Assembly: GCA_013368315.1 (NCBI GenBank)
Contig: JAACJM010000002.1
Coordinates: 248,001 to 312,000 of the forward strand
DNA: 64,000 bases
Direction: 5' to 3'
From: Tetrapyrgos nigripes
Taxonomy: Eukaryota; Basidiomycota; Agaricomycetes; Agaricales; Campanellaceae
Shown piece after piece: positions 720 to 25,194 of the stretch. Within the stretch, counting starts at the first letter, position 1. Each line of letters begins with the position of its first letter. The notes beneath the pieces were generated by a model. That model was given only the letters and a program-made list of their open reading frames with translations. It was not told where the DNA came from and ran no database searches. The translations under genes and the position numbers were made by a program.

Positions 720-1251
720 CCTTCATACGGACCTTGTTACAGAGCTCTATATTCATCCCAACATCTCGTAGCAACTCTAAAGCTTCCTTGATCGTCGGTC
801 TAGTGATCTTTCTCCTTGATGCTGATAAAGACAACCATTCCAACTCTGCTGTCGAGGAAGAGGGCCACTTCAACTCCTGCTCAGAGCTCAGCGCTCAGCA
901 CTGGTACCGGTTCTCTTGACTGAACCAAACATCATGATATTTCGATCATCCAGTTCGTAGTTTCGCATTACAAGCTTCATCCATCTAAGCCAGGGCACTA
1001 GTATCTACTAATGTAGATCTAGTTAATACCGGCGAATCCACTATGTACCGCCATCATCCTCCCAAAAACGTTGCGCGTGAACAACACAAACCCCAGATAT
1101 AAAAACTGATCCAATTCCTCCAGGCAGCAACTTCAAAGTCTATAACACGTCCCCGTGTTTAGTCGCCAACGAGGACATCGACAAATACGCAATTCCTGTC
1201 TCATTGAGACGCAACATTTTGACTTATGTAAAACCCGGATAATAAGGGATA

Positions 1252-2048
1252 CTATGTAGAACGCTTGTTCGTGCTGTGCTCCCACTGATTCCAATTGAAC
1301 GAGATTCGGAAAGTCGATGAACCCCTGAACGCGCTCACTGTCATCGCGAAACCCGGTTCTGGACTCCCAGATGAAAGTCCGACAAAGACATTATATAGAG
1401 GTTTGAAATGCGCCTCTGGAGTCTGGCTAGCCGGTATAAGCTTCTCCGAGTCTAATGCCAGAGATCTTGAGACGCTGGACACAGACGGCAGATAGGAGAC
1501 CGTACTTCCAGGACTTCGTCTGCGCATCGGATGTCACGGAAAGTGAGGTCTGTGATGTGGGCCAGGATTAGATTAGGCCCTGAAAGCTTGGAGAAACGCA
1601 TTCCGGTGAGCTGAAGCGCTAGCCATCGAAGAGAGGGTGCGGTAATCAAATCTGGAAAGAAAGGGTGTCGTTCGAAACCAAGCTCGGACTTCCAATGGGA
1701 TGATTGATACTCAAGGATGTGAGACGTGGAAGCATTGGTATTAGTTGAGGAAAAGATGCGATACTTAATCTGCTCGAGGTCATATTCACAGTAGAGCAAG
1801 ATGGCAAAACTCCTCCATCGATGAGCGTAAGCGAGAACGGGGTTGAGAAGTGATGCAATGAGGGCGTATGCGGATCTATTGGGAACCAACACGCCGAAAA
1901 GACAAAAATATCCGCTCGACGGATAGATCACATCACTACTACTGATATAAGACATATCTGTTAAAAAGTGTGTTTCTGTACGCCTTTCTGCCGAGCGGAT
2001 ATTTTTGTATTTTCGGCGTGCAAAGAGCAATGTTATGGAGTAACGCAT
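1252..2048 (-). pseudogene. Decayed F-box/LRR-type protein fragment
   Basis: The minus strand from about 2048 to 1452 gives a 198-residue open frame. It contains stretches typical of the LRR part of mushroom F-box proteins: a 'HRWRS' helix near the middle, then 'APSLRWLALQL' and 'HITDLTF'. A second minus frame (1646-1858) reads as LRR-like ('FPQLIPMLPRLTSLSI'), which suggests a frameshift between the two. No F-box itself is visible, and the 5' side runs into an inverted repeat at 1890-2020. I read it as a degenerate fragment; the family assignment is by resemblance only. Confidence 0.4.
1890..2020. repeat. 29-bp inverted repeat
   Basis: Arms at 1890-1918 and 1992-2020 are near-perfect reverse complements separated by about 73 bp. 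The unit abuts the F-box relic and may be the foldback element or duplication that broke it. Confidence 0.75.
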
Positions 2049-2079
2049 CGCCGAACGTCTTTCATTATTATTATTGTAA

Positions 2080-2391
2080 TAGGGCTCCTAGCGGATCGGA
2101 TGATCCGACGGTCATCCGGCGATAGGCCCTCGGATTCGGATGGCGGATGAGGCTTTGGGTGAGTGTCATCCATCGGTTGACCACCTGACTATCATAGATT
2201 GTTGTAGTTTAAATTGGTTGAGCACAACGAATAGATGTTCTTGAAACCCCACACGACTACGTTTAAGTACACCTACCAGTCATCCGCCCATCCTTCGGAT
2301 GCCATCCGCCGATGCGGATGAAGGCTTGTTAGTAGCTCATCCGAGCGGATGGATCCGCATCCGAACAGCATCCGATCCGCTAGGAGCCCTA
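2080..2391. mobile_element. hAT-like MITE (TAGGGCTCC ends)
   Basis: A 312-bp unit is bounded by perfect 23-bp terminal inverted repeats starting TAGGGCTCCTAGCGG. The interior is dense in CGGATG/CATCCG repeats next to both ends, as expected of subterminal transposase-binding repeats. Ends of the TAGGG type fit the hAT superfamily, but the flanking 8-mers do not match each other, so the insertion is old or has lost its target duplication. There is no coding content. Confidence 0.75.
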
Positions 2392-2879
2392 CTTTCATAG
2401 TTAGTGTTGCCGCACGGCGCGAGTCGAGCGACCCCCGTTATTTGGTAACCCAGAACAGAGGGTGGTTGATTGAAGTACTGAAAGTTCACTGTTCCCGCCA
2501 CTTAGTGTGCTTGATGTTTGCTGAGCACATCTCCCGAAATTCCATGGGTTACAGTCTCATGCAACCGGGTGCATGAAATCTGTGGGCGGTTAAACGGTGT
2601 GTCAATCTCCAATCTTTCGTCAAACGGCCGCTTAGCGGGTGCTTTGACGGTGAGTTCAAGTTGATGATGACTAGCTGCGATATTCTCCCGCTCCTGAATC
2701 AGAGTTTTTGATACTCCACTTCCACGGATTTCCTTTGACAGACTTGGTAATAGCATAGGAATTGTTCCAGCTGCCGATTACTACGGGGAAAGGCGGATTC
2801 TTCTTATCACCGACAACTAAATAATAAAAAGTCTGCTTTCCTGTCATAATTCTCCAACTGCCCTCCTAGTCTATCAAAC

Positions 2880-3323
2880 ATGCGCACCTTTTTCACTGCT
2901 GCTCTTGTCGTTCTGCTCGCCCAAAGCTTCACTCTTGCGAACGGCCAATCTTGTACGTTCCTCTTTGCAGATGTTCAAGGCCAATTGAGCATAATCTGAT
3001 CCGCTCTACACATTTTTTATGATCTCATTATAGGTACTGAATCGAGTGTGAGTAGTCTTTTCGTAGTTGAACGAAAACCGGCAATCTAACCGATTCTCTC
3101 TGCAGCCTTGTACATCTCGTTCAATATCATGATTCAGACTTCCTATGTCTGATTATTTTTTTACTTTTCAGGCGCTAGCAATTTAGAATGCTGCTTTCTC
3201 AATGGCTTCGACGGCCAACCGTAAGTAGACCCAGCCTAGTCTGATTGGCATTCGAATTTCGATCTAATTTCGACGTGTACTATCAGTGGACAGTGTGTCC
3301 CACTCGGACAATGCCCTTTTTAA
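2880..3323 (+). CDS. Small cysteine-rich secreted protein (5 exons)
   Basis: Exons 2880-2952, 3034-3047, 3106-3118, 3172-3220 and 3287-3323 join through four GT-AG introns of 53-81 nt into one open frame of 61 residues. The N terminus (about residues 1-22, MRTFFTAALVVLL...) is a clear signal peptide. The roughly 37-residue mature part has six cysteines spaced C-x5-C-x8-CC-x10-C-x5-C, enough for three disulfides. An A/T-rich TATA-like stretch lies about 57 nt upstream of the ATG. Each exon is too short to show as an ORF, so the call rests on splice-site and phase consistency. It resembles the small secreted proteins and effectors of basidiomycetes in general; no specific family is recognised and no function is claimed. 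Confidence 0.7.
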
Positions 3324-4044
3324 ATCAACTAGTGGACAAGCAGTGCCACAGCTAGCGGCTGGTGATGGCCTAAATTCGAAGACTTGCTGTCGATATACAC
3401 CATGGTTTCTTCGCTTATTTAAAGGCTATACACAAAGAGATTCTATGCTACACATGTAAAACCAAATTTATTCTGAAATATTCATTGTGAAAGTTGCAAA
3501 GTCGCGGAACACAGAAGTTAACTCGGCCTAAAAGAGCCTCGTAATACTGTATCGTAATGGCGGACTCTGAACTGGGCCAAAATCCATCTTCGTAACGCAT
3601 AATAGAGGGCCATGAATTGGCCGTGAACTATGTCCGTAACATTTTGGTTCAGGCTAAATTTCTTTTCGGGCGGACTAAATTATTGACATGTATATAAAGT
3701 ACTCACCTGTAGATATGTACGATAGAAATTGACAGCCCCCGTTCGACACTAGAGAACCCCGTCTTCGGGTGGAACCAGAGAATACCATTGTGTTTTGACT
3801 GTTAATTTGTGTGTTTGATTTTGAAAGGGGAATCCCAACTTGCGCTGACTCGCAGTTACTGAGGGATCTCAGTCAGAGTTTTACTGGAGGGATCTCTATT
3901 TGAGTAAATACACCCAAACAATCGTACCTTCCAGAGTGTGGACCTTTGGTCCCAAGGCTTATTTCTCTGAGACCCCTTTGAACTTAGGGGCTCTTATTGA
4001 GTGTTTTATTGAGAATTTAGTAGTTTTCTATTGAAAGCTACATT
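3324..4044. other. Gene-free stretch
   Basis: No coding region is recognised. The sequence is moderately A/T-rich with no clear repeat ends. Confidence 0.4.
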
Positions 4045-4800
4045 AGAGAGCTTGGACAGAGCCACCAGCAGCCACGTGTGGCTTAGTAAGCGTGCGCAGA
4101 GCAGTTGGCTCGAAATCGTGTGCGCAAGTTGCAAAGCATATATTGAGGTAGCTACAGTGAGTGCATGCAAAACAAGCATAGGGAGTGATGGAGGGAGCAT
4201 CCAGGAATAGGCCAAGCACAAAAGAACTGGGGTATGATGTACAAAAACTAGCATAACAGAGATTTGATGTATATGAACTATGAGAGCTCATGAGAGAAAT
4301 AACGTGCTTCTCTGGACAGACGGGTGAACTGGAAAGGATGCTGGGGTCAGACAGTATGTTTGATGAAAAAAAAGGATGATAGGTGAGGATATCTGGAGAG
4401 AAAGCGCAGGGTGGTGAGGGAGGACGCATAACAGCATCATTGCTTAGGGCCAGCTCAGAGATGCAGGGGACTGGACCATTCTAGGCATCCTAAATCAATT
4501 TTGGGCCCAAAAAATACACAGAAAGCAGCATACGCACCTGTGTATCCTGATGAAAGCTGCCAAATGTTCCTGCCATACTTCTGACGTGTCCTACAGTACC
4601 ATGGTGCACAGAACTGCACAGTAAGTTCCCTGCGGCCTTGATTGTGATGCCAACTGAGAATCGAAGAGGAAGGGAGGCGGTTGTTGGGCTGACGAGCGAG
4701 ATATGGCTGCACTTGGGTTGCGCACACGATTTCGAGCCAACCGCTCTGCGCACGCTTACTAAGCCACACGTGGCTGCAGGGGGCTCTGCGCAAGCTCTCT
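4045..4800. mobile_element. 756-bp element with 83-bp terminal inverted repeats
   Basis: The first 83 bases (4045-4127, AGAGAGCTTG...) and the last 83 (4718-4800) are reverse complements with only a handful of mismatches. A 3-bp direct repeat, att, flanks the element at 4042-4044 and 4801-4803 and may be the target duplication. The interior has only short overlapping frames and no transposase motif, so it is a non-autonomous DNA transposon of unknown superfamily. Confidence 0.8.
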
Positions 4801-5158
4801 ATTTCTATTTACATACTACATTTAAGTACTACATAGCCCTATCAATTCGAAAGTTGAAACCAGGAACCCGATCAGGCTACCCGCTATGATTAATTATATG
4901 GGCCTCCGATGGATACGTTTCTCATGGCCCTAAGCTCCCGGGTAGATCCCGCCAGGTTGGTGGTGTAGTATTATTATTATTATTTTGAATCATGTTCAAA
5001 ATCATGGCAAGTCGAGATTCCGAGTACCATAGCATCCTGTCACAGGCACTTCTGAACCGGCAATATCGTCTATAGTCACAGCTCCGTCTCCTTGACCATC
5101 TTAAAAGTCAGTTACTGCTGCGACACACGCATACATACACTCCTCCCTCTGTCGACCA
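4801..5158. other. Promoter region of the isocyanide synthase gene
   Basis: No gene is seen. A short (ATT) run lies near 4970-4984, and a TTAAAAG TATA-like motif lies near 5100, about 58 nt before the ATG at 5159. Confidence 0.4.
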
Positions 5159-7533
5159 ATGACTGTCTGCGTGCCGCCATCAGAATTCCCGCGACCTCCG
5201 TCCAAAATCATCAAGCTCGACTCCAATGGCAAGCCTACGGGGACTGCTCCTGCTGCCGTCGTCGGTAAATCCAATCGTCCTTGGTGGTTCACTTCTGGGC
5301 TTCCAGACAAAGCAGCTCGGCTCACGGAGGTCGTCTCTCACTACCTTTTCCTAGATGGAAAAGACAACCGCTTTGAAATGCGTGGACGCCACTACTTATA
5401 TAACGTTCTCTCCCGTTACGTCCAAAAAGAAGAGAAGATTGAGCTCGTTTTCCCTGGATTCCCTTTCAAGAGTCCTAGTGCGCAAAAAGTCCTTGGCCGG
5501 CTTCCTGATCTTGGAGAGGAGCTTCTTCTCCATAGGCTCGAAGCTCTTGCTGCCGCCATTGAGGACGATTATGCGCCTGGTGCTGTCGTTCACATAGTAA
5601 GCGACGGGATTGTGTATGGTGGTAAGGCTTTTCCTATCACTTTTACTCTTGAAAATCTGTCTTTCTGATGTCCAAGCCTAGAACTTCTCGGACAGGACGA
5701 CGCAAGCGTCTACCTCTACAACGCCGAGCTACGTAAAATATGCGTGGAAAGCAACTTGAACCACATCACGTTTGTGAGGCTTGCGGATTTGATTCAGAGT
5801 GACGTGGTCTCTGTCGATTCGAACGAGATGACCCTGGAAGAGTACGTTCGCTACGCCCCCATCATCCGCTCTCAATTTCTTGCCCACGATATTTCGTGCT
5901 ACAATATCGAGGACAGCATCAGAAATGATTCGGGGGTACTAAAAACCTACCGAGGATACCTCAAGTTCTTGGAGCTCGATCTAGAGGGAACGAGCGTGAT
6001 GATGGATCCCAATGGAAACCCGCTCTCCGGAAAGCAAAAGGACAAGATCCGTCGGCAGCTTGCCAAGAAGATGATTGTCCACGGAACTGTAAGTTCTTCT
6101 GGCCTGAACTCACGACACTTAGAACTGATCTTTCCGTTAAGAAATTCTCCGATCTTGTTCGAGTGAAATTCCCTTCCTGTGTCCGTTTAAGCTGTCATGA
6201 GCATCCCAACGAAGGTCCGAAATTCGCTTTGAATCTCTTCCCGGGTGCAAAAATGTCTGCTACACCAGTAAGTACCCCTTTCGTACTGATTATTTTAGGC
6301 ATAGACTAAATGTTTTGACAGTGGCACAACGTCATATACGAAGCTGCTGATGGACGCGTCCAAATCGGTCCCCTCCAATCGTTCGACGAGAAGAACTACG
6401 AGATTGTTTCGAAACACGGCCGACCCTATTACATTCGAGAGAAGTCCACGGTATACTCATTTGGGTCACAGCTGGACACACAGATTTCATTCACTCGAAA
6501 CTTCCCATTCGGATTGACCATCTCTTGTTCACCATCCGACAGCTTGTCTTTGAACGATCTACCCATGAACAAACTGCGCACGCTCATGGCTATGCACTCC
6601 TGTGTACTCCTCCGTGGGTTCTCCAAGGTTGATCGTGAGGATTTTATCAAGAAATCCGAAGAGCTAGGACCAATTCTGTATGGGCTTTTGTGCTTTAGGT
6701 CTCGTTTCAAAGTCGTTCTGACAGTCGATTTAGGCGCTGGCCAGCTTATGGGGCTATTTTCGAGCTGAAAGAAAACCCCGACTGGGACGTAAATAGCTCA
6801 CTCACATGCGAAGCAATGCCTATGCATTACGACGGTACGTGCTCACATTTGTATTTTTTTCATGCCCACTCATTCCGTCCAATTCTCGAAGGTGTCTTCA
6901 AGACCAAGACAGACGGACATGGGCGAATCACAAACGATCCTCCTCAGCTCCAAGTCTTTCAATGCATTCAGGCACCAGGGCACCAAGAAGGCGGCCAAAC
7001 TCTTTTGACGAATACAGCTGAAATTTTGCGATACGGAGTGACTCCTTTGCAGAAAGAGCTACTTGCTTCCAAGAAGTGGACGGTGTTCACACCCCAGAAC
7101 ACGGTGTTTGGAGGAGATCATTTCAAACTGCCCTTGGTCACGCAAAACGAGCTTACTGGTCATGAAATATTGCGATGGCACGATCCTTGGTATGTTCTCT
7201 TTGCTGATATGATAGCGAACGGGGTCTGATCGATCAACAGGCCGCAATGGGTGACGAAGTTCAAAGCAACTAACGTCGGGATCAGTGATGCTACTCGGGA
7301 AGAAGAGGCAAAGATTGTTGATTTGCTGTCCGATCTGTTGTATGACCGCAGGTTTTGCTTAGCTCATACCTGGGAGACGGGAGATTTTCTCATTGCGGAT
7401 AACGTCGAAGTAAGTATCTTACCAACTAAGTTTTTAATTTTGATATGGTATTAAAGAATTGCTTCAGCTGCTACACACAAGGACAGCCTTTGTGCCGAGT
7501 CCAAGGGAATTGTGGCGCATTCACGTCAACTAA
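5159..7533 (+). CDS. Isocyanide synthase (DIT1/PvcA) fused to Fe(II)/2OG dioxygenase (TauD-like)
   Basis: Eight exons (5159-5621, 5682-6088, 6142-6267, 6322-6677, 6734-6834, 6892-7189, 7241-7409, 7468-7533) join in phase into 661 residues. Residues about 60-340 match the DIT1/PvcA isocyanide synthase family: an SDG motif at 148-150 followed by a 'GxLLGxDD' stretch, 'VRLSCHEHP' at 304-312 and TPWHN at 331-335. Residues about 375-655 are a TauD/clavaminate-synthase-like dioxygenase with iron ligands H482 and D484 (HYD) and H643, plus arginines R653/R657 positioned to bind 2-oxoglutarate. In this family the synthase converts an amino acid (Tyr or Trp in studied cases) and ribulose 5-phosphate to an isonitrile, and the oxygenase then desaturates, decarboxylates or hydroxylates it. 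The fused order recalls fungal xanthocillin-type XanB (from memory). All key residues are intact. The substrate is not readable from sequence. The next gene on the same strand is a prenyltransferase. Confidence 0.93.
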
Positions 7534-8097
7534 ATCGATCTTGAACATTTCCTTCAGGTGTATTATAGCTTTTTATTGGTCTGGTTAGCTCTTCATATGC
7601 GGAACATATATTTATCCGCCTCGGACGCATTCTGTCTTTCTTATTTAAATACATGATGGTCGCATTTACCGCTGAGACTCCATAAAGACCCTATGACAAC
7701 TCGCAGTTACAGACTCCGACTGTGCACGGGCGTAGCAGTACTTCAATGGAAGTGATAAAAAATGTACCATAAGGAGCCCCTCGGCCTAATCACTAGGAAC
7801 TAGCAAGGATCTCGCAAGAGCTCATTCAATTGATCAAGCACTACAAAAGCTAAGATTTCAATCCAAGCCGCGAAGCAGTGCGAAACAGAGTCGACCTCAT
7901 TTTCCCTGACTCTTCATTCAGTTGCGCTCAGTGTTGGACGGGCAGGAACTCAAAAAGAGATCTCTGAAGGCTTGGCCATCATTCGCTGTCTGTTACGATA
8001 TATTGATCGTCCCTCAACCCATCATCAGTGATGTACATACTGTTTTGCGATCAAGCATTGTTACTGCTGATCTACACAGAGCCCAACGATTAGACGA
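7534..8097. other. Intergenic region, no gene recognised
   Basis: This stretch lies between the stop of the isocyanide synthase gene and the duplicated promoter module. A 66-residue open frame at 7922-8122 has no recognisable features. Confidence 0.4.
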
Positions 8098-8401
8098 CGC
8101 CCGTTGCGGTTTTCAGCAATAATACGCTGAAACACGATTTCTACCAACAATCGTAGCCAGGTCAGGAACCGTGGCTCAGGGTCTATCTCTTCCGTTGAGT
8201 GACGGGGATGATTCCATTAGAAAAGACAAGTATCCGGGAAGATACATAGCCGCCCGTTGCGTTGTTGAACAATATGCTGAAACATGATTTCTACCAACAA
8301 TCGCAGCCAGGTTAGGAACCGTGGCTCAGGGTCTATCTCTTCCGTTGAGTGATGGAAATGATTCCATTATAAAAAAGCCAATTATCTGGAAAGACACATA
8401 C
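8098..8401 (+). repeat. Two tandem copies of a 153-bp module in the prenyltransferase promoter
   Basis: Units 8098-8250 and 8251-8401 begin CGCCCGTTGCG and are about 85-90% alike by eye, including a long identical core ('GGTCTATCTCTTCCGTTGAGTGA'-type block, 8177-8199 and 8330-8352). The second unit ends 19 bp before the ATG at 8421. Only the second keeps a TATA box; the first reads TAGAAAA at the matching place. Confidence 0.85.
8368..8374 (+). promoter_or_regulatory. TATA box of the DMATS gene
   Basis: TATAAAA lies 53 nt upstream of the ATG at 8421, inside the second copy of the tandem module. The matching site in the first copy is mutated, so the proximal copy should set the transcription start. 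This is a positional inference. Confidence 0.55.
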
Positions 8402-8420
8402 AAAATCGTTTCCCTTTGCT

Positions 8421-10371
8421 ATGACTCCTCCAGCATCTAGTGAAGCTCCAATCAAATGTAAGTAACAGTGCTCATTGTACTCATTCGGAATTTGGACATA
8501 CATTTACCTTGGGATTTGCAGCTCTCCTGAAGTCTGTCTGGAGACCAGACGCCTCGTTGGAGGACAATGTCAAAGCACTTGTCCGTGCCCTGCACGGAGG
8601 CAGTCTTCCTGATATCAAGCCATCGCATAGCAAGGAGCAGACCGGTTTGAAGCTATTCGATATTCTGGCCGATGTAAGCCCGTTTATGACACTTTCAGTA
8701 TTCGGAAACCTCATATCTTCTATCAGATACTCATAGACGACCAGTCCGAGCAGTCTTACTTCCATTGGCGAAAGGTAGTATTACCTTTTGCCCAGATGCT
8801 TGATACATCGGTAAGTACGCTTTTGTAGGGGTGTTTCACTATTTCTTAGTACGCGTCTTTCCAGAATTATCCTCTTCCCATACAATGCGCCTTTGTTCTC
8901 TTCGTATATGCCCGAGTTGTCCCCTTCTTGGGTCCAGATGCCTTCACTTTGCCTCCTTCCATTATGACCCTCGACGGCAGTCCCATCGAGACTAGCTGGA
9001 TCATTCCAAGCTCTAATTTGAAGGAAGCTACATCTGGCGATAAACCCAATCGCAACGTTCGCTTTGCGATTGAACCTCGGTAAGGGTGCATTTATTTACC
9101 TTCCATCTTCTTCTTGATCTGGGACATGAACCTCTAGAGACCCAAAAACCGGCCAGTTTCACAAGGGCGCAAGAATGCTTGATTATTACGTGTCCACACT
9201 CGGAAACTTTGGTGGAATGGTCAAAATTGAAGAGGATGGAATGCTTTGGCGACGAAAGATTGAGAGATTCATGTTTCCTGAGGACGAGGATTCTCAAAGT
9301 GCGGAACTTGGAGAGGAAGTTCTTCCGGGAAGTCGTTTCATGCTTGGTAGGCGATCTGATTTATATTTCGAGCGTTGTACTCAATGCCATTTCAGGAATG
9401 GACTTTAGTCCATTGGGTAACATAGTGCTGAAGGCGTACTATGTTACCATCCGAGTTCCTCCTTGGGATCCGACCTCTCCTCCACTGAACACACAGAGCC
9501 CTGTGTTCATAGGGGATCTTGACCTTTCGCCCCTCCGTAAATTGACCCAAGACCTTGATCCGTCACTTGCCCAGCCGTTCGATCTCTTGATGGAATACAC
9601 GAACAGCATTGATAAGGAACTTCGCCCCGCATTCGAAATAGTAGCTACCGACTGCCTCACTCCTTCAAAGAATCGTTTGAAAGTAAGAATCTCGAATTTT
9701 CTCTTCTTCGCTGTGACTATCATTGACTTTTTTATGTAGATCTACTGTCGTACTATGAAGGGTACTTCTTGGGACGATGCCAAGAGCGGTTTTACTCTCG
9801 GTGGTCGTCTCAAAGGGCCTGAAATGGAAAAAGCCGTGAAGGTTTTGGAGACCCTCTGGGATACCATGTTCCCCAATGCTGTTGAGAACCATTCGCAGCC
9901 CCTGGAGAGATCCAAAGACGTTGTGAAAGCTGAGAGGAATATTCATCCTCTCGGTGGACTTTTGTACTATTACGAGTTTGTTCCCGGACAGAACTTGGTC
10001 TTCCCCAAAGTCTACCTGCCGATCCGGTAAGTTCTGCTTTTTTAGAGCTCTTGTTGGCCATACTGACCTGAGACAACTGCAGTGTATACTCTACAAACGA
10101 TTTGAGTGTTTGCGAAGCGCTGGAACGATTCTACCGTCGTATTGGTCTGACTGAACATCTCCCCGAAGGCTGGTTTGTCCGAGAGGTATCCAAAGCCTAG
10201 TAAGTAGTTCAACTTGGTTGCTGAAACGTTTCCCTCTCAAACAAAACCTGCAGTTCTCATAGGCCTCTTGATACCCCGGGCAAAGCTATTCAGACTTATT
10301 TGACATTCTCAATGAAGAAACATGGTTGGGAGTTGACGAGTTACTTTTCGCCTGAAGTTTGGTTGAATTAA
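8421..10371 (+). CDS. DMATS-type aromatic (indole) prenyltransferase
   Basis: Nine exons (8421-8457, 8522-8673, 8727-8810, 8865-9079, 9138-9346, 9396-9682, 9740-10026, 10083-10199, 10254-10371) join in phase into 501 residues, somewhat longer than the usual 400-470. Family landmarks appear in order: 'PIETSW' around E133, where studied enzymes place the glutamate that binds the indole N-H; 'VRFAIEPRD'; 'GMDFSPLGNIVLKAYY'; 'IYCRTMKGTSWDDAKSGF' followed by 'LGGRLKG'; and 'GGLLYYYEFVPG' leading into 'PKVYLPIRVYSTND'. These match the beta-strand motifs of the ABBA-fold fungal dimethylallyltryptophan synthase family, which moves a dimethylallyl group onto an aromatic ring without an Asp-rich motif. 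It lies 0.9 kb downstream of the isocyanide synthase on the same strand, suggesting an aromatic isonitrile or its precursor as acceptor. Acceptor and regiochemistry cannot be read from sequence. Confidence 0.92.
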
Positions 10372-11251
10372 CGACTTCCGAGTCGCCCAGGTCTTGTTCT
10401 TGATCATGATCATAACCTGGTTTGGTTTCTTGCATGTATTCTTTAAAAGCTTCAAAAATTCTGTTATTGAAACTACATTATATATTAATCTTTGCTAGCC
10501 CCTGACATTCTGTTTGACACCCGGCCTTGACCTCACATGCTTTCTCACCCTCACCCTTTGCTTGCTCCAAAGGCCTGTACTAGTCCTGGGGGTAGACTAA
10601 GGCCTATCTATCTTGGATGCTTCGAAGCATTTGTACCAACTGGGAGACATTCACGATACAACCGCGTCAAACGCGTCAAGAATTGAAGGTTACAAGATAT
10701 GGAGACTCAGGCTATGCGTACGATCTTGACTAGTTGCCAGTGCTGATCCGCGGGAGAGACCAGCTAGCGCTACTTGCTCTACCAGCTCTAGTACTCGCAT
10801 TTTTGAAAATAGCAGTGAGAGAGCGGGATTGCGTGTGCCTGCCATTGGTTATCTTTGAAAGGGAAAGCAGTGGGACGGACTTCAAGTTTGGCACACGTCT
10901 GTTTTGTTTATGTTCGCACATACTCGCATCTATCATCGCAGAAGTCGTACGTTGCACAGGCCTTAATTCATAGCCAGATGAATACCAGATTCAAAGCGAG
11001 TTGTACATAACCATATATCAGGCCCATATGTCGAATGTAGGGAGAATACAATTTTGAATATGAAGAAATAGAACAAATTTTCGACAGGAGACAGTCGATC
11101 ATCGAGGAACAACGATGATAGAAGTAGATAATTTGATATCTCCTGCACGGTCATTGCTCTCAACATCCTATCCAGCACTGTTAAAACTTAGAAGGAAAAC
11201 TTCACAGCATGATTGACTCACATGGAGAGCGGTCGCAGAGCCATCGGATGT
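10372..11251. other. Convergent intergenic region
   Basis: This stretch lies between the stop codons of the DMATS gene (+) and the DUF6534 gene (-). Short frames around 10730-10973 and 10963-11178 show no family features. No gene is supported. Confidence 0.4.
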
Positions 11252-12765
11252 TTAGCCCTGACTTTCGAAAGGCATGAAGCTCAGAGACCTGGTTTGTTTT
11301 GATCGCCGCGAGGAAATAACTTCAGATGAGTAAGTGTCGTCATTTTTCTGTCTGGTGTTTAAACTGGCCAAAAGAACGTTGGAGTGGCTAATGGGTAAAG
11401 TCAGCGACATGTCGAGTGTGGAACGGGTAGGAATTTTACAGTTTTCCCAGAAAGAGAGCACTTAGATCAACGATAGTTTCAGTATTCAGAACAGTCCGAG
11501 ACAGGACCAAAGCACGTACTGCGTACTATAAACGAATTTTTGAGGCATAGTGATGTAGAGGATGAGTTCAACACCGGCTGCCACTGCTGTGATAGCACCA
11601 CTGCGAATAATGCGAATGATCAACTGGTCGATGAGGCTGTTTGTAAGACCGAAGTTGCTTTTGGAAGGGTGCAACTGGAAATTTTATGTTAATTATAAGA
11701 AAGCGAGGAGATCCGGGTATTGATGAGAGAATTTGCTATGATTAGCATGCATGTCGCGATGAGGATATCTACAACGAAGCTTCCAGCAAGCCAGACCTAG
11801 TAAATATCGTTGTGAAGTACAAGCATTATTGTCTGAAATTTGAGACCTACCGTGAATATTGGCGTGAGCAATTCTATATCCACGATATCCACTGTGGCTG
11901 ACTGTGAACCTGAGTGCTCATACTAGGATGAGTTAGCCATCGGTACTCACCTTGATGAAAGCAACGAAACAACCAATGAATTGAGCCAGCGCGATCTGTT
12001 AAGCAGAATTAAGTACGAATAACATGGAATTTGAACCAAACGTTTTGCATACCAACGCAGTAAGCACTGTAGCGGCCTTCGCTATCGTGTTATGCCCAAG
12101 AATCCGGATGCGCCTTGAGAAGAGGAATATTTTGTCAGCTAAATATGACGGTGCATATCACACTGACCATGCAAAGAAGAATTAAATCAGAGCCGCGACT
12201 GTGGTATATAATCAGAAATGCAGAATCATGCTGAAGGATGGAAACACCAAATACCTATACCGCACATCACTGGAAACGTGTACGCAGTCCACGGTGGAGC
12301 AGCCAGCGCAGCAGGATCACCCCAGCCCAGAATCAGAATTCCCCAACTTGAATGAGTAGCGAAAATCGTCTGTACGATGTCGAGCACGATACACGTAGCG
12401 ACTAAGCAGGCCTATTCAGACGTACGAATCGTAACTGAGTGACACGTCTCTTACCCAAAACCTGGATCCATTTCGAGTCCCTATGTCGGGAATTGTAGTA
12501 GACATCTGAAATTACGATGGTTAATCAAGACTCAGAAGCAAAAGAAAATAAAGTATTCACAAGCTTGAACCACCAGTCCACCTAACAACGCCATGTTGAG
12601 GATTGTCCCACTAATTCAGCGGCGTCGAGGTAAGTAGAGGAAGTGTGCGAGAAGTATGCCGTACAAGAGGACCAGTACTAGTGTACTCCAGTCAGAATCA
12701 CGTTGAAATATGAGGGTGCGCAGGTTGACTTACAAGAGCAAGAAGGGCTCGCCGGCGTGAGACAT
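11252..12765 (-). CDS. DUF6534-type seven-helix membrane protein
   Basis: Read from 12765 down to 11252, about ten short exons give a polytopic protein: 'GTILNMALLGGLVVQAYVYY', then 'DSKWIQVLVATCIVLDIVQTIF', 'GCFVAFIKH' (part of a helix), 'VWLAGSFVVDILIATCML', and 'TNSLIDQLIIRIIRSGAITA' leading into 'AGVELILYI'. It ends in a soluble tail with 'SNVLLASLNTRQ'. These blocks, with alternating hydrophobic helices and the T-N-x-L-I-D/I-I-R segment, are the signature of the basidiomycete DUF6534 family, which has no known biochemical role. The N-terminal exons (11 residues from ATG 12765, then a tiny exon) are the least certain part. It is convergent with the DMATS gene. A role in transport or sensing for the neighbouring pathway would be pure inference; the family is very common across mushroom genomes. 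Confidence 0.8.
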
Positions 12766-13798
12766 CTTCAGACCGCGCTGTAGAGTACCTCCCTCCTAGG
12801 ATTTATATGTTGCGTTCAGTTTGTCTGTCAAACAAGCTTTATGAGGATGGCCTCCGAGTCATGATTAGGTTCCTCAACCGAGGCACTAAATTTTTTTCGG
12901 ACCCCTTGGATGCCGGTGTTCTTTCGTGCTAAGGAAGTGTTTCTGTGATGAGTCGCCTGCGGTCCGCGAAATTTTCCTCTTCCCATAGTTGGCGCACCCT
13001 CGATAGGATGCCTATAGTAGAATCATCTTTGTTATTGCCCGGAAGCTACGCTCATGTAGCCCGGAATATTTCCTACAGACCTCAAGCCACTGCGGGGTTT
13101 GATCTTGTTTTCACCTACGTATTAGGGTTCTGTAGATCATAATGTGACCAACTAGGAATACATATCATCCGTTGATTTTCTCCCCTCTAATTCCTGAACC
13201 TCTTTTCAACGGCGCGACGCCAAGCTTTTCGAAGACGACATCATCACATGACTCCGCAACAGCTTGCTGGCAAACCGCGACCAGCTGCATTCAGTCTTTC
13301 CAGGTCTTTGAGCCCTTTTCCCTCCCATATAAAGCAAGTCATTTACCCTAGACAGCATCCTCACTCTTCAGATAGCCTTACTATGAAGAAACAGGCCTTC
13401 TTCTCCCGTCCTCCTGAGGAACCAAGTCATATAGCTGGACTGCAAAGTGACAAATTTCGGGCGCAACACCGTGAGTACTCCCTCCAAGACTTCCATTCAT
13501 TTCTCCAAATCAACCATGTGTGATACTGGGCAGTTGACCTCGAAATTTTCCGTCTTTTATTGATACATGATGTACAGGTATCTTCCATTGCCCACCGACA
13601 GAATCGAAAGAATACTCTCAAGTTCCTTTTGATCTCATACCCATATCCCATAATCATCATTATTCACATGAAATCGACACCACTAGTACCAAGCGGGTGC
13701 ATGCGCAAGGCCTAGGACCAGTAGCCGTATATAAGAAGTTTCCGAGATTCTGGAGGAGTACACCGAGGGTCCAACTTCAAGCGACATTTCTCCTGTTG
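12766..13798. other. Intergenic region and FAD-oxidase promoter
   Basis: This stretch separates the divergently transcribed DUF6534 and FAD-oxidase genes. Open frames at 12945-13142 and 13248-13523 lack recognisable features. The TATA box of the downstream gene is at 13728-13734. Confidence 0.4.
13728..13734 (+). promoter_or_regulatory. TATA box of the FAD-oxidase gene
   Basis: TATATAA lies 71 nt before the ATG at 13799. It lies downstream of an in-frame upstream ATG at 13697, which argues that 13799 is the real start. Confidence 0.5.
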
Positions 13799-16597
13799 AT
13801 GATGGGGCTCCTCTCAATCACTCTTGCTCTTGCTCTTTGCAGCGGTTCGGCACTGTTCCCGGGATTGTCGACGACGACGGTGTCGGTTGTCGCGGGAGGT
13901 GAGCCAACGATTTCATTATGAACACTGCATATGTTGACGCTGATGCTGTGTCTGACTGAATGACTTGACTCGTCTCCCCGACCAACACAATCATCGTTAT
14001 CATCAACGCAACACCCTCATCATCCGCCATCCCGTCTTATCATTGTCCCGTCTCGTCTCCAGCCGAGGTATACAACACGTTCGATGGACCAGGATTCCCA
14101 GCATGTAATGCGGTGTCGCACGTATACCGACCATCAACGGTGGACGAGATGGTTGAGATAGTAAAGAACGCGAGTAGCCAAGGGATTCCTGTTCGGGCTA
14201 GTGGGGTGAATTCCAGACTCATACTACTTCTACGTTCAACTGACTCTTTTCTTTCCCTTAAGAATGCACACATGTGGTGTACGTCTCGATTTCCAGTTAT
14301 TCAGTCGTCAAATCCTCATATCAATACCAATACCAATACCTCATTTTTCCGTCCTTATTCCTTCTTACAGATGACACCATGTGCTCTGACGACCCCGAGA
14401 CCATCATCATCAAGACAGACGCCGTGAATCGAATTTCGGATCTAGAGCTAAACGATGGTGTTGGTAGTGTGATGATCGAAGCTGGAGCGACATTTCCGCA
14501 GGTGTAAGTCGGTATCCAATCGTCCGCTTGACCTTCTAAGCACTAATTGATGTTTGGATACTTAGTGCCCAATGGTTACATGACCACGGAGCCGCGTTGG
14601 GGTACACTCTCGGTAAGTCAAACTCGTTTGATAGCGCGTCAGATCTTCATACTCATTGGCCTTATTCCTCGTCAGTAAATTGGAACATCACCATGGGTAT
14701 GTCTGTCCCAGCGTTTCACTTTACACTTCCTGTTAGTACATATGGCTCACGCATATATTTCATCCAGCCGGTGCTATCGCCATGGGAGCCCACAGATCCT
14801 CACTTCGTGAAGATTCTCAAGTATCGGCCGCAGCTCTTGCGATGGATATTATCAACGGGAAAGGTGTGCATTCTTCAAGTTCGCTTTCAAGGAAAAGAAA
14901 TCGATTCGGTCACTGACTAATCTTATCGCAGGCGAACTGATCCACATCGAAAAAGACGACTCCGACACCTGGCTCGCAGCCACCACCTCCCTTGGTCTTC
15001 TCGGCATCATCGCTCGAGTAAAGTTTGCAGTCCAAGCTGACTATAAGGTTTATGCAAACCAGACTATTTTGGATGAGGATGAGGTATTGGGTTTGAATGG
15101 GGATTATGATATATTCGAAGAGGTTTCGCCATATGTTACTGCCAATTATTGGGTGGGTTTCCGTTTTATCTTTCAACTTTGCTCATCTTTTCGTCGAGAC
15201 TGATGATTCTGATTCCTGACGCTGACGCGGTGTAGTGGTGGCCTGGCCAGAAGAAATTCCACCTCAGAACCTATGGTGTCGTTCCCATTGAGACTTCTGG
15301 AAATGCGTTCCAGGTACGCAATCCTTCTCCTTCAGTTCATTTTAACATCTAAATGATCATATCGTGTTTGTCTCATACTCATGGTATCACGGTAACAGTC
15401 AACCTTCTCCGTCACTCCCTTCGAAGGAGACACTGCCCGTAATCTGTTGAACGCAGGTCAGAACCTGAGTCTGCCGAATTTCGTTTCAGAGGGGATTTTC
15501 TTTGGGTTGTGGTCTGCTCCCAATTTCCATGGTATGTTCTCACGGTCATTGTTTCCTCCTTCATGAGCGGGTTTGAATGTTGACGACTACATCATCCCCC
15601 ATCTATCCCATAAGACAAACAAACCGATCTACCTCTCCTCTTCTGGCCCGTCAAGGGCTGGTCTTACGACGTCCTCATCGGAGGGTTATACCCCAACCAA
15701 TTACCTGAATGGGATTACGACTTACATGGAAAGACACTTGAATTAGCGGTTCCTGTTACGCAGGGACAAGCGTTGTTGAAGAGGGTGAGGGAGTTGTTTG
15801 ATGAAGCTGCGGCAGATGGAAAGGCGGTTACGGCGACTTATAGGAGTGGAATTAATATTAAGGTGAGCTTTTATCTTCACGGCACTATTAATTAATTATC
15901 GGTTTCAAGTTGGCTAATATGAGCTCGTACGTTGGAATTAGTTTGGCAAGCCGTTCGATAGTTTCCTCGGACAGACGACTGAGCGTGTCGGGGATGTTCA
16001 AGCGGATTGGTCTAAGGTGAGTGTACACGCTCAAACTAGTCCTTATTCCTTGATCCTGATCCTTCTGTATGGTATGTGACCGTATAGGGTGCTCTGATGT
16101 TCGATTTTCCCTCATTCGTCCCCACCACGGGTGATCACCATCGTTATAACGAGGAATGGTCAGTAGATTATTCATTTCTTGTGCACCCTTTCGAGAAATC
16201 CTGAGCCTGAACTCATGCCGAAAATCATTTTGTTTTGTAGGTATGCCAAGTTGGCGACTACGCTCATTAACGAGGTATGGACTATCTTTCCTTTTAGAAG
16301 CGCCTTACTCTGACGTTATTCGTTACCTCCTTCTCATAGTTCCCTGTCCGGCCTCACTGGACAAAGAACACTCGTAGCATTTTCCAGCAGGCTTTGAAGA
16401 ATTTGGATCAGGACGTGAGTACTTTTCTCTTCGTTCACTCACTTTCATTTTTCTGTCCATTTCATCCATCTTTCACCATGCTAACTAATCGCGGTGCTAT
16501 CCAGAGCATCACTCGTTTCTCTCAAGTCCGCAAAGAATTCGACCCCGATGGTACCTTTAAGAGTATCGTTGGCGAGATTATTGGGGTCATGGATTGA
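13799..16597 (+). CDS. Secreted FAD-linked oxidase, sugar-lactone-oxidase-like
   Basis: About 15 exons from ATG 13799 to TGA 16595-16597. The first residues (MMGLLSITLALALCSGSALF) form a signal peptide. Exons 2-6 carry an FAD_binding_4 (VAO/PCMH) domain: 'HVYRPSTVDEMVEIVKNASS', 'PVRASGNAHMW', 'GAHRSS' and 'TSLGLLGIIARVKFAVQ'. The C-terminal half ends in 'FPVRPHWTKNTRSIFQQ' and 'FDPDGTFKS', the layout of the D-arabinono-1,4-lactone/gluconolactone oxidase (ALO) family, where RPHWGK is usual; here Gly is replaced by Thr. Such enzymes oxidise sugar lactones or related alcohols with O2, producing H2O2. With a signal peptide it probably works outside the cell. FAD oxidases also act in fungal secondary metabolism, so a link to the isonitrile pair is possible but unproven. 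The start was chosen for the signal peptide and upstream TATA; the ATG at 13697 would add 34 residues. Confidence 0.85.
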
Positions 16598-20066: not shown

Positions 20067-21703
20067 CAGTGGCCAAAAAAATTGTCCACATGTTTGGCAC
20101 TTTTGGAAGGATTGCTGATTTAAGAGCTATTGAGCAGAAATCTCAAAACATGGCTGGTGGTAGCAAGAAAGCCTTTGATTAGAGCTACAATAATCTGTCT
20201 GTTTTGTCTTATTTGGCCAAATATCTGTGGAGTTATGATTGATTTAAAACTGTATGTCATTTGGACAATTTTTTGAGTTGCCACTTCAAAATCATTATTG
20301 CAATAACCTGATGTGTTATACATGATGTCATGGGTGGAGCTGTACAGTAATGTAATGTATACACTACAATGATGTCATAGCTGCCAGCTGGAGCATACAT
20401 AGCAACATACAGATGCTCTACAGCCTCTATGAAAATCATGGGGTCCCTCATATCAGCCCAGAAAGACAATCTCTACTCTCTCCTCTTAACTGCCTCTCCA
20501 TCTGCAAAAATTGCAGCTCAGACTGGAGTATGGAAGCCAAGAGTTGCTTTTGTGGCTTAAAAGACAAATACAGACAATGAGAACAATACAGCAGGGTGTC
20601 CTAGGAGGCTCTCTACTACTTGTGAAGAGGTTAGATTGGGAAAAAATCCATTCTGGTAAAGCCAGATTGCTACACAAGTGGCCTGAAACATCAAGGCTCT
20701 TCTTGGACAACCTGTCCCAACCTATAACAGCCAAAACATTCCTGAAAACGTCTTGTGGCGATCTCCAAAACACAGAACAAGTGCAAACTTACAGTGACTT
20801 GCAGCAAGGCTCACTTGAAGTTTGCACAGATGTAAAAAGACCAGGCTGTAGAAGGCTAGAAGTGGGTTATTTTCTCAGATAAGACCAAAACCAATTATTT
20901 TGGGGCAAATATGCCCCAGCATGTGTGAGAAAAGAGAGATAAATTCATGGTACAGCAAGATGTGACAGAAATGATGACATTTGAGAGAGAAAATGACATG
21001 ATGGGGTAGGGTATGGGGCAACAGTAAGCAGTAAAAATGGTCCAGATGAAGGGGAAGATATATTGCAAACACTATATGACCATCTTAAGTAACAAAATCC
21101 TGGAAAGCATTAATAATATGGGAGTTGATCCAGAGGTGGCCATTTTTCAGCTGGGTATTAACTTTCTAAAGTACTATATCCAATGGTTTCCTTTATCAGA
21201 ACATGTCTCTCTACCTATAAAAGCAACACTCTGCTTTCATACTTCAGTCTGAGCTGAAATTTTGATAGAGGGAGGGGCAGTTTGGAGGAGAGAGTAGAGA
21301 TTGTCTTTCTGGGCTGATATGAGGGACCCCATGATTTTCATAGAAGCTGTAGAGCATCTGTATGTTGCTATGTATGCTCCAGCTGGCAGCTATGACATCA
21401 TTGTAGTGTATACATCACATTACTGTACAGCTCCACCCATGACATCATGTATAACACATCAGGTTATTGCAATAATGATTTTGAAGTGGCAACTCAAAAA
21501 ATTGTCCAAATGACATACAATTTTAAATCAATCATAACTCCACAGATATTTGGCCAAATAAGACAAAACAGACAGATTATTGTAGCTCTAATCAAAGGCT
21601 TTCTTGCTACCACCAGCCATGTTTTGAGATTTCTGCTCAATAGCTCTTAAATCAGCAATCTTTCCAAAAGTGCCAAACATGTGGACAATTTTTTTGGCCA
21701 CTG
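20067..21703 (+). mobile_element. Tc1/mariner-like element, copy B
   Basis: 1637 bp, an essentially exact inverted copy of copy A, flanked by TA at 20065-20066 and 21704-21705. The small differences between the two long terminal repeats are shared: copy A's left end equals copy B's right end. The transposase relic runs on the plus strand (about 20511-21250) with stop codons and no intact DDE catalytic domain. Confidence 0.85.
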
Positions 21704-24700
21704 TAACTTTATGAGAATATTGCATAATTTTTCATACCATCGACGACCAGCTTGTTTCAACCCATATAGAGTCTTTCTGAGTTTAAGTACGTAGCCTTCA
21801 GGTAAGTTAGGTAGTAAATTACCCGGAGGTGGACGAAGGTATAATGTTTCCTCGTCAGTAACGTTTCCGTAAAGATAGGCAGATTTAATATCAATCTGAG
21901 TAGTTTCATAGTCTAATGAAGCTGCAAGAGCAAGTATAAAACGTGTACTGCTCATGCGTGCTACAGGGGCAAAGATATCATTTGCGTAGTAATCAATGCC
22001 TTCTTGTTGACTAAAGCCTTGTGCTACTAGTCTAGATTTCAATTTGGTCTGTTTGCCAAGTTCGTACTTAGTTTTGTAGACAAATCTGGAACCAATGATA
22101 TTCGCATCAGCAGGAGGTTTGACGTATTCCCAGGTTCCTAGACTTTCTAGAGATTCTATCTCAGTTTTCATGGAATCAAACCATGCGTCACGTTGTGGAT
22201 GATTGAGTACATCCTTGAATGAAATTGGATCGCCAACGTTATCAGCGTAGTAAACATTGAATTCTGTTAAGAAGAAAGCAATGTTTTGTTCAACTTCATC
22301 GTAGAGTAAACCTCTGGCTTCTTGGATCCTTTTTGATCGTCTTGGGCCATCAGGTTGTTTAGTTTCGTCTTCGTCGACATCCATTGGTTCAGGTTCGTGT
22401 TCCTGAGAAGTTGGAGTTTCAGTTGTATTTTCTTCTGTAGTTTCTAATGGTTCTTGATTTTTGTTTTGTAACTCCCCTTCAACTTGCGATTTGGACGTTA
22501 AGAATTGCAAGTTGCGTTCTACATTCACTTTAGTACCAAAGTAGACATAATGGCCTTTTGAATGATCGTCAAAGCCTAACCAAACTCCACGTTTTCCTTT
22601 AGGAGTTAGTTTACTAGTTCTTGCTTCGTCATATACAATGCAAGGTGTACCAAAGCTATGTAGATTGTCTAAGTTTGCGTTAACACCGTAACGTTTAAAA
22701 TAGGGAGTTTGCATTTTTAATGCAGTTTTCGGAGATCTATTAAGTATGTACATAGTATAAAGTCCTGCATGCCACCATAAACGATTAGGTAGTTTTCCGG
22801 TATGCAGATTAACACGAATACCATTCATGATATGTTGATGTATGTTTTCAGCAACTCCGTTTTGCTGAGGCGTGTCATGAACTGTATAACGTGCAATTGT
22901 ACCTTGTGCTTTCAGGTAGTTTTTGAATGCACCCGAAGTAAATACGGCATCGTTGTCTGATTGTAGAATTTTAACTTTGATACCATATTGCGTAAATAGT
23001 TCAGTAGTAAATGTAACCCATTGGGTATAGGCTTCGTCTTTTGTTTTAAGTGGAGATAATATTAACCAACGCGTACAGTCGTCAACGATGGTTAACCAGT
23101 ATTTGTAGCCTTCAATAGAGGCAGTTCGTAATGGACCAAATATATCAATATGAAAATGGTCTCCGAAGTTTTCTGCTAATTCTGAAGTACGTTGTGAAAG
23201 TCTGTGTATATTATTGATGATGCAGTCTTCGCATTGAGTTTCTGTCCAATCATCAATAATGATTGTAATAATAGATTTATCTGTTTTTAGTAATGTTTTT
23301 AGATTTGTATAACTCATATGACCAGTTTGTTTGTGAAGTTCATATAAACTTAAAGTAGCAACGTTATCACTCAATTTTTTAGTTGTGATGGAGTAAAGTT
23401 TGGCGCTCTCGTGTATAACGCCAATGAAATTGTCCTTATCATTCCGTATTATACATAAATGATCATGAAAAGTAAAAGTATAGTCCGCTTTTTGTGAAAT
23501 ACTGATTAAAGTAAACGGAAGTTTTGAGTTATAGTATACATTTTTAAGAGTGATCGATGAAGACTCACCATTGTCCTTCCTAATTTCTACCCGCATATCG
23601 CCTGCTAATTGAAGATCTAGATGCTCTGAATTGGCAACAGTTAAAGTTATGGCAGGCGTAGTATGAATGTTAAAAAGTAAGTTAAGATATGGTGTACAGT
23701 GTATAGTAGCACCAGAATCAATGATATGCGTATGATCTTGGTCAGAGATCGCGGTAAAAGCAGGTAGGGAAATATGATGACTCACTGGAGTCTCTGAGTC
23801 TTCCATCTCAACGTCGCTCGAAGAAATTGACTGTACCCAGTCCGATTGCGAAGTTGACGTAGTCGCAATTTGAGAAGAAGAAGACGCAGGCATGGAGATG
23901 GCAACTGATGCATTCTCCTTGGTCTTGCCTTTGTTGGATTGTTTAGTAATCCCTTTCTTCTTCATAGCTTCTTTGGACTTTTCAGTCCACGGTTCTGGGC
24001 ACGTCAGGGTCGTATGACCCATCTTGTTGCAGTTGAAGCACTTCCGATCCTTTTTGACATCAGAAGGCTTCTGGAACGGCGCTGCGGCGTTAGCGCGTTC
24101 CCCTTTTGACTTGTCCGATCGTTGAGCACCGCCTTGACTAGTGCTACCAGACTTCTTGTCGGACTTCTTCGAAGGATACGTTCGAGCATTGCTCAAACGA
24201 TAGTTTGTGAATTCCTTCTTTAGCCGCGCAATGAGGTCAACGGCTCTGTATACGGGTTTCTCCCCTTCAGCTGCAGTAGTGGCATCCCATGTAGCTGCAG
24301 CTGCATCCACAGTTGCTTCGTAAGAACTGCGAACAAAGTGATAGTGAGGAGGAATAATCCCCACTAGAGCTGAGTAAAAAACTTGGTCTGAGACATCTAT
24401 GTCTCTCTTCTTGATAGAAGCCCAGAGATCCTGAGCTTCGTCGAGGAGCTTATCAAACTCCCAGACTGGTTTTCGTAAGTTGAAGAGTTTCCACAGCTCG
24501 TTAGACTCTTGAACTGTGGATGAAGGGTCGAAACGTTGCTTGAGCTTCTCGATAAGCTCTATCGCATCCGACTCTTCGGTGTAGTGGATCATGATTTTAT
24601 CATCAATCTTGCCTGTAATAGCGTTAAAACAGGCTAGTTTGACAGTATTACCAGGATGTAACCCGGAACTTTTAAAGTGTTGGTGACGAATCACCCGTAT

Positions 24701-25114
24701 AGCGTTATTAACGCGGAAGTACCACATCTTCCAATTCTCACTGCCAGTAAGAACTGTCAGGGAATCAAAAGCTTTGTTGATGTCGCTGAGCGGCATCACG
24801 TAGTTGGGGTTTGTGTTTTCGGGCACAGATAATGCGACCGACGAAGTAGAGGTAGATGGAGGAGATGATGGTGAAGTAGGGGCAGTATCCCGGACATCAG
24901 TCCTAGTATGTTCGCCAGCATCAGACATAATGGGATCAAGTGGGAATGGAAGAGGGTTTTGGAAGAGAGGATCAAGTGGTTGGGCTTGTGAAGTAGATGA
25001 TACGGGCGGAGTAGGAGTTTGGGTACCAGAGGGGTGTGCACTAGAGTGGCGACTGGTAGTAGGAAGTGGGATATCTGGGGCTGATCCTTGAGATCGAGTT
25101 TGTCGACTAGTCAT
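21704..25114 (-). pseudogene. Copia-1 gag-pol, N-terminal part (Gag to RT fingers)
   Basis: An uninterrupted minus-strand frame of about 1,137 Copia codons from ATG 25114. Order: a Pro/Ser/Thr-rich N terminus; a Gag capsid-like region; a CCHC knuckle 'CFNCNKMGHTTLTC'; aspartic protease 'IIDSGATIHC'; an HHCC zinc region; an integrase core with its first Asp in 'FHIDIFGPL', second in 'LQSDNDAVF' and Glu in 'QQNGVAE'; an acidic linker; and RT fingers/palm ('RLVAQGFSQQEGIDY', 'TQIDIKSAYLYG', 'LRKTLYGLKQAG'). Translation then runs into the Tc1-like end. All motifs are intact, so only the nested insertions inactivate it. Confidence 0.93.
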
Positions 25115-25194
25115 ATACTAGTCCAAGAACAGAGTACGAGTAGAGAGTAAAGCAGAGTAGAACAAGTGTTTATCGGAGTTATAGCAAGCTAGGC

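Follow-up and report, generated by a model that had tools for sequence, protein, structure and literature searches.

Fungal gene clusters for isonitriles have come to be recognised only lately; few of their products are known, and most of these are from ascomycetes. Enzymes of the PvcA/PvcB type convert tyrosine into a vinyl isonitrile. In this report we describe two neighbouring genes in a 64-kb window of the Tetrapyrgos nigripes genome (contig JAACJM010000002.1, positions 248,001 to 312,000), an isocyanide synthase (ICS)-dioxygenase fusion, termed ICS-TauD, and a DMATS-family aromatic prenyltransferase. We propose, with a probability of roughly 0.55, that the two form the core of a conserved Marasmiineae gene cluster and that their partnership leads to a prenylated aromatic isonitrile or a derivative of it. 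Several described systems come close. The fungal ICS-dioxygenases XanB and IcsB of Aspergillus fumigatus have the same two-domain fusion (PMC5974471, PMC10153163), and a survey of ICS clusters counts six of them in T. nigripes; the main text of its preprint uses none of the terms prenyl, rhodanese and sulfurtransferase (PMC10153163). For the known fungal families xan, crm and dit, our comparison with the gene set described here extends to the words of that main text. The cyanobacterial hapalindole and ambiguine clusters bring together an isonitrile synthase, the IsnB oxygenase and an aromatic prenyltransferase, and some of their products are isothiocyanates (PMC4236562). In Burkholderia gladioli, a rhodanese transfers sulfur from thiosulfate onto an isonitrile to give the isothiocyanate sinapigladioside (PMC12112954). 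Among DMATS-type enzymes, BypB uses orsellinate, Stereum hirsutum ShPT uses hydroxynaphthalenes, and VibPT, which is 91% identical to ShPT, uses 4-hydroxybenzyl alcohol and aldehyde; the accessible part of that paper mentions no ICS link for any of the three (PMC10344970).

A preliminary description of this DNA had reported a DIT1/PvcA-TauD fusion with its catalytic residues next to a DMATS-family gene, both intact and on one strand, at positions 5159-10371. Spliced gene models reproduced these coordinates exactly. The ICS-TauD gene (5159..7533, + strand) encodes 661 residues and runs from an ATG at 5159 to a stop at 7533 in eight exons (5159-5621, 5682-6088, 6142-6267, 6322-6677, 6734-6834, 6892-7189, 7241-7409 and 7468-7533), separated by seven introns of 51-60 bp, all of the GT-AG type. 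Pfam searches located an isocyanide synthase domain (DIT1_PvcA, PF05141, E=2.9e-72) at residues 85-360 and an Fe/2-oxoglutarate dioxygenase domain (TauD, PF02668, E=3.5e-31) at residues 407-658; PF05141 is followed by PF02668 in a single chain, the order by which we recognised an ICS-TauD protein. All 103 conserved columns of a 20-member ICS alignment are retained (33 invariant and 70 near-invariant, the latter having the same residue in 18 or 19 of 20 rows). The dioxygenase half carries the motifs MHYDG (from residue 481) and LLHTR (from residue 641), whose HxD...H residues we take to bind the metal. By sequence, the nearest solved structures are the TauD/TfdA dioxygenase 7tcl and isonitrile synthases including 9dhm and PvcA, and PvcB is also among the matches. 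Relatives with 61-89% identity were found in five species including T. nigripes itself, and identity to the three Aspergillus ICS-TauD proteins compared is 35-37%. Unlike the described fungal ICS-dioxygenase family, the ICS-TauD of this cluster is partnered with a DMATS and a rhodanese.

The DMATS gene (8421..10371, + strand) is likewise intact. Its nine exons (8421-8457, 8522-8673, 8727-8810, 8865-9079, 9138-9346, 9396-9682, 9740-10026, 10083-10199 and 10254-10371) encode 501 residues with a Trp_DMAT match (PF11991, E=1e-61). All 29 conserved columns, defined as those kept in at least 37 of 41 aligned rows, are retained. These include E133, which aligns to the FgaPT2 chain in a column that is glutamate in 41/41 aligned members (E134 of P0001); the column presumably corresponds to the acceptor-binding Glu89 of FgaPT2. 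DMATS prenyltransferases are the nearest solved structures by sequence, and the DMATS fold was found for the Marasmius oreades orthologue (82% identical to the window protein), with matches in the Protein Data Bank (PDB) including DMATS1, FunA, NotF and FgaPT2. Both family assignments of the preliminary description were thus borne out. The 887 bp between the ICS stop and the DMATS start (7534..8420) align at both ends to the corresponding intergenic DNA of two further loci of the genome, C51 and C115.

We compared the window locus (C2) with loci on other contigs of the same genome (C34, C51, C115, C194, C201, C247, C281 and C446). Genome profile searches score the best candidates only and the locus counts are lower bounds: at least seven loci for PF05141 and at least seven for PF11991. 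At five of the seven ICS loci (C2, C51, C115, C34 and C247) a DMATS gene lies downstream on the same strand, 887-1726 bp from ICS. C34 and C247 are near-copies (~97%), as are C281 and C446 (~98%); each pair shares its flanks and its members are possibly alleles. With near-identical pairs counted once, DMATS accompanies ICS at four of five loci (about five independent loci). The pairing is not perfect, as no DMATS was found in the stretches examined around the ICS genes of C281 and C446, and no ICS was found beside the DMATS copies of C201, which has a frameshift, and C194, which is degraded and lies 2.3 kb short of a contig end. The ICS of C281 has a frameshifted last exon and its near-copy at C446 is intact. 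DMATS frames are open at C51, C115, C34 and C247, with intron 3 modelled as GC-AG at the last three. We calculated the ratio of nonsynonymous to synonymous substitution rates (dN/dS) for intact copies, leaving out the ICS of C281 and the DMATS of C201 and C194. Values were 0.11-0.24 for ICS (15 pairs, six copies) and 0.09-0.21 for DMATS (10 pairs, five copies), well below 1, indicating that both genes were kept by selection after copying. Given this purifying selection and the intact spliced models, we rejected the idea that the window copies are pseudogenes.

In comparisons between loci using blastn, the unit held in common by the dispersed paralogous loci spans 5035..10439 (+ strand) of the window and is found at C51, C115 and, in more diverged form, C34/C247. 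The flanking window DNA is not common to these loci, repeats excepted; flanks 1200-3900 and 10480-16300 have partial genomic matches only, and the genome yielded no allelic counterpart of the C2 flanks: short high-copy repeats aside, even the best hits cover them in part only, at 88-90% identity or less. The differing flanks of C2, C51, C115 and C34 had raised the possibility of a mobile two-gene cassette, which we do not claim since introns are kept and the pairs C34/C247 and C281/C446 share flanks. Together with the decayed P450 and rhodanese neighbours found at other copies (see below), these features point to ancient segmental duplications whose flanks have since eroded.

The linkage extends beyond T. 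nigripes. In M. oreades, a rhodanese (E1B28_013475), DMATS (E1B28_013476) and ICS (E1B28_013477) carry consecutive locus tags. In Stygiomarasmius scandens, DMATS (VKT23_014708) and ICS (VKT23_014709) are consecutive and a rhodanese (VKT23_014711) is nearly so, and in Collybiopsis luxurians all three lie within one contig of 481,823 bases. Together with T. nigripes (Campanellaceae, Marasmiineae; NCBI), these species represent three families, Campanellaceae, Marasmiaceae and Omphalotaceae. Flagelloscypha sp. PMI_526 also has ICS and DMATS on one contig (347,564 bases), its DMATS falling outside the cluster clade. Repeated linkage within the genome and in other genera led us to reject a chance neighbourhood of the two genes.

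We then built maximum-likelihood trees of DMATS (28 of 46 matches and five own copies) and of ICS (28 of the 120 matches listed, out of 161 found, and four own copies); both trees drew a long-branch warning from the program. The DMATS proteins of the cluster fall into a single clade (100/100) that is sister to BypA, BypB and ShPT (100/99), and the cluster ICS proteins also form a single clade (100/99). BypB and ShPT are each 41% identical to the window DMATS. M. oreades groups with Collybiopsis in both gene trees (93/99 and 98/93), and C34/C247 are set apart from C2/C51/C115. The T. nigripes copies form one group in the ICS tree (98/96) and are not resolved as one in the DMATS tree. No supported fork of one tree contradicts the other, a result to be expected from joint inheritance, or joint transfer, of the genes. 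Although S. scandens and T. nigripes are members of one family, S. scandens falls outside the grouping of T. nigripes, M. oreades and Collybiopsis in both trees. The history of the cluster departs from taxonomy, and either an old duplication with loss or horizontal transfer would account for this. The linkage at five of seven ICS loci, its recurrence in other genera and the lack of supported tree conflict uphold the functional partnership suggested in the preliminary description, and the synteny in relatives that it had named as a check is present.

A fuller version of the locus is found at C34, where a cytochrome P450 gene lies to the left of ICS-TauD in divergent orientation and ICS-TauD is followed by DMATS and then rhodanese. 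C247, compared at the protein level, is a near-copy. The cluster P450 (PF00067, E=1.6e-66) was modelled at both loci with a provisional start codon, and P450 traces are present at C281 and C446. The rhodanese, to the right of DMATS at both loci, is a two-domain protein of 334 residues. Its C34 model is 100% identical to the database protein D9758_008351, and the C247 copy is near-identical to it (87-98% by piece). A second P450 at C34:261607-263657, ~14 kb beyond the rhodanese, matches the cluster P450 piecewise at 43-62% identity, and open reading frames (ORFs) between this second P450 and the rhodanese (C34, 268.8-274.3 kb) resemble a Gypsy-type element by eye. A relic of 55 residues of a cluster-family rhodanese was seen at C266:38473-38737, with no ICS or DMATS found within the 5 kb examined; it may be what remains of a cluster copy that has been lost.

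The cluster rhodanese is set apart from its relatives by several features. Comparisons rest on the best 120 of 443 matches, five of them cluster members. These five, the only listed proteins with more than 60% identity, come from the same five species that have ICS at more than 60%. Among the other 115 the next-ranked match has 33% identity and none exceeds 37%. The catalytic loop reads CGWGVT in 5/5 cluster rhodaneses and in 0/115 others, which mostly have CGSGVT or CGTGVT. The segment ahead of a conserved GH has eight residues in all five cluster members; it has 16-22 in 113 of the 115 others and seven in the remaining two. In the column of the loop arginine, the cluster members have a gap (5/5) and 104 of the 115 others have R. 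An arginine past the fourth residue of this segment occurs in 0/5 cluster members versus 111/115 others; one cluster member, P0170, has R at the fourth residue itself. The cluster rhodaneses also have a conserved C-terminal extension of which the three other relatives in the alignment inspected show no sign. In 3-mercaptopyruvate sulfurtransferase and rhodanese, the loop and the arginine missing here bind the sulfur donor or substrate. The C34 protein contains two PF00581 stretches, the arrangement expected of a two-domain rhodanese, and C253, invariant in 44/44 aligned proteins, is its predicted catalytic cysteine. Its AlphaFold2 model is confident (mean predicted local distance difference test, pLDDT, 90.7) and two-domained, with 3-mercaptopyruvate sulfurtransferase and rhodanese as the closest structures. 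We infer that the cluster rhodanese has changed specificity. The genome encodes a separate, distant rhodanese at C15 (36-37% identity).

Building on the observed gene content, linkage, conservation, purifying selection and active-site residues, we infer a substrate, an order of steps, a regiochemistry and products as follows. The ICS half would convert an aromatic amino acid, most likely L-tyrosine, into an isonitrile acid, and the fused 2-oxoglutarate oxygenase would decarboxylate and desaturate it to a vinyl isonitrile, as in PvcA/PvcB. DMATS would then place a prenyl group from dimethylallyl diphosphate onto the phenol ring or its oxygen. The cluster P450 would oxidise the scaffold, and the cluster rhodanese may transfer persulfide sulfur to the carbon of the isonitrile group (R-NC to R-NCS), which would make the final product a prenylated aromatic isothiocyanate. 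The precedents of PvcA/PvcB, of the basidiomycete DMATS enzymes and of the Burkholderia rhodanese together point to a vinyl isonitrile made from tyrosine, which would undergo prenylation, oxidation and, at loci with a rhodanese, conversion to an isothiocyanate. The window copy may work in trans with the P450 and rhodanese of C34/C247 or yield the isonitrile alone. Marasmiineae may have an isonitrile-derived route to prenylated aromatic isothiocyanates, with a rhodanese recruited and remodelled as a dedicated isonitrile sulfurtransferase, convergent with Burkholderia. We put this extension forward tentatively, at somewhat less than even odds. The proposal of a prenylated aromatic isonitrile in the preliminary description therefore stands as regards the partnership of the two enzymes and is incomplete as regards the product, as the fuller locus adds a P450 and a rhodanese and the end product may be an isothiocyanate.

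The closest parallel is the sinapigladioside pathway, in which isonitrile formation is followed by sulfur transfer from a rhodanese, as proposed here (PMC12112954). That pathway is bacterial, a prenyltransferase belongs to the mushroom cluster instead, and the two are likened from the published description of the pathway. The aromatic oxygen of sinapigladioside is reportedly glycosylated. A scan of bacterial contigs for ICS loci yielded four weak matches (21-31% identity). Within the open-access titles and abstract openings searched, a scope outside which most subscription papers fall, no ICS with a DMATS or with a rhodanese is described in a fungus. Texts that name both isocyanide synthase and DMATS, as far as their accessible parts go, treat them as separate backbone classes or have ICS in the references only.

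The steps might also run in another order, with DMATS acting first on a free amino acid, for example by O-prenylation of tyrosine, and ICS then acting on the prenyl-tyrosine. Amino-acid acceptors do occur in the superfamily: among the closest folds are those of DMATS1, in crystals with L-Tyr and in crystals with L-Trp, and of a free-histidine prenyltransferase. The nearest characterised sequences, however, use phenols or naphthols and not amino acids. We regard this order, which is compatible with the proposed partnership, as possible though unlikely.

A second alternative concerns the rhodanese. The prenylated aromatic isonitrile could itself be the end product and the rhodanese could serve in self-protection against cyanide or isonitrile, without a part in biosynthesis. 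Isocyanide hydratases, hypothesised to be self-protective, are reported in 21.1% of fungal ICS clusters (PMC10153163), and cyanide is the classical rhodanese substrate (PMC12112954). Moreover, three loci with intact ICS and DMATS genes (C2, C115 and C51) have either a disrupted rhodanese or none. Against protection stand the remodelled active-site loop and conserved C-terminal extension of the cluster rhodanese, as well as the presence of a separate rhodanese at C15. A protective rhodanese thus appears rather unlikely as a full account, and we give modest odds to a biosynthetic role over a protective one.

The indole version of the pathway, in which a Trp-derived indole isonitrile is combined with prenyl transfer in convergence with the hapalindoles, is in our view improbable. 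Bacterial members of the ICS family use Tyr or Trp (one PDB entry is so named), and in hapalindole clusters IsnA/IsnB occur together with an ABBA prenyltransferase (PMC4236562). Those clusters are indole-based with 19 genes in common, their prenyltransferase is described as belonging to the ABBA superfamily and not as DMATS, and the word rhodanese does not occur in the text of that paper (PMC4236562). The parallel with hapalindoles drawn in the preliminary description is weakened by the placement of the cluster DMATS as sister to BypA, BypB and ShPT, which are phenol or naphthol enzymes. Finally, it is very improbable that ICS and DMATS owe their proximity to history alone and have unrelated products, since, although each occurs without the other (ICS at C281 and C446, DMATS at C201 and C194), the lone DMATS copies are broken, linkage is kept in species of three families and the gene trees are without supported conflict.

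A number of observations weigh against the proposed cluster and its prenylated isonitrile or isothiocyanate. In Collybiopsis confluens, ICS and rhodanese are on separate contigs and a DMATS match is absent among the matches listed. C51 and C115 each carry a broken P450; the rhodanese is reduced to fragments at C51 and was not found in the 40 kb examined around C115, and neither the P450 nor the rhodanese of the cluster families was matched anywhere in the 64-kb window. Several copies have lost the extra genes or carry them in decayed form, with ICS and DMATS still intact, and the window locus is a stripped copy with the two core genes only. This could mean that the isonitrile is useful in itself at C2, C51 and C115, that all are served by a single locus, or that the rhodanese has a protective role; it could also detoxify cyanide. 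Sequence does not reveal the ICS substrate; the position of the DMATS clade, sister to prenyltransferases of phenols and naphthols, favours a tyrosine-type phenol over indole.

A family scan of 10 chosen open frames of the window (one listing has 55) gave three matches, a copia-like retroelement and fragments of a P450 and of a carbonic anhydrase; no further cluster members were found among these 10 frames, a type of scan that intron-split genes can escape. The retroelement (21650-25117, - strand) encodes a Copia-type polyprotein with RVT_2, integrase core and related domains, and the P450 fragment (60482-60853, - strand) lies ~50 kb from the gene pair. Upstream of ICS, positions 4044-4801 hold an element of ~760 bp resembling a miniature inverted-repeat transposable element, with 84-nt terminal inverted repeats that are 94% complementary. 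It has at least 40 copies (40 of 69 candidates scored), the 39 besides the query being 81-97% identical, and copies lie 1-2 kb upstream of ICS at C281 and C446. A high-copy repeat of ~130 bp (1886-2024) is mostly 95-98% identical at the ~40 places scored. Exons at 13969-15895 (+ strand) resemble an FAD-linked oxidase by eye, with a Pfam match in 0/3 open frames, and related DNA (74-79%) is present at C53, C17, C115, C33 and C281. ORFs at ~33.3-37.0 kb resemble an element at C115.

These data describe a basidiomycete cluster with a defined core of ICS-TauD, DMATS and rhodanese that is kept together in several genera. The predicted chemotype, a prenylated isonitrile or an isothiocyanate with the reactive group of mustard oils, is specific and would be easily detected, and M. 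oreades and C. luxurians are starting points for its study. If the rhodanese step is true, it would represent an isonitrile-to-isothiocyanate route in a eukaryotic microbe, and the CGWGVT loop together with the missing arginine loop would then provide a signature for seeking such enzymes elsewhere.

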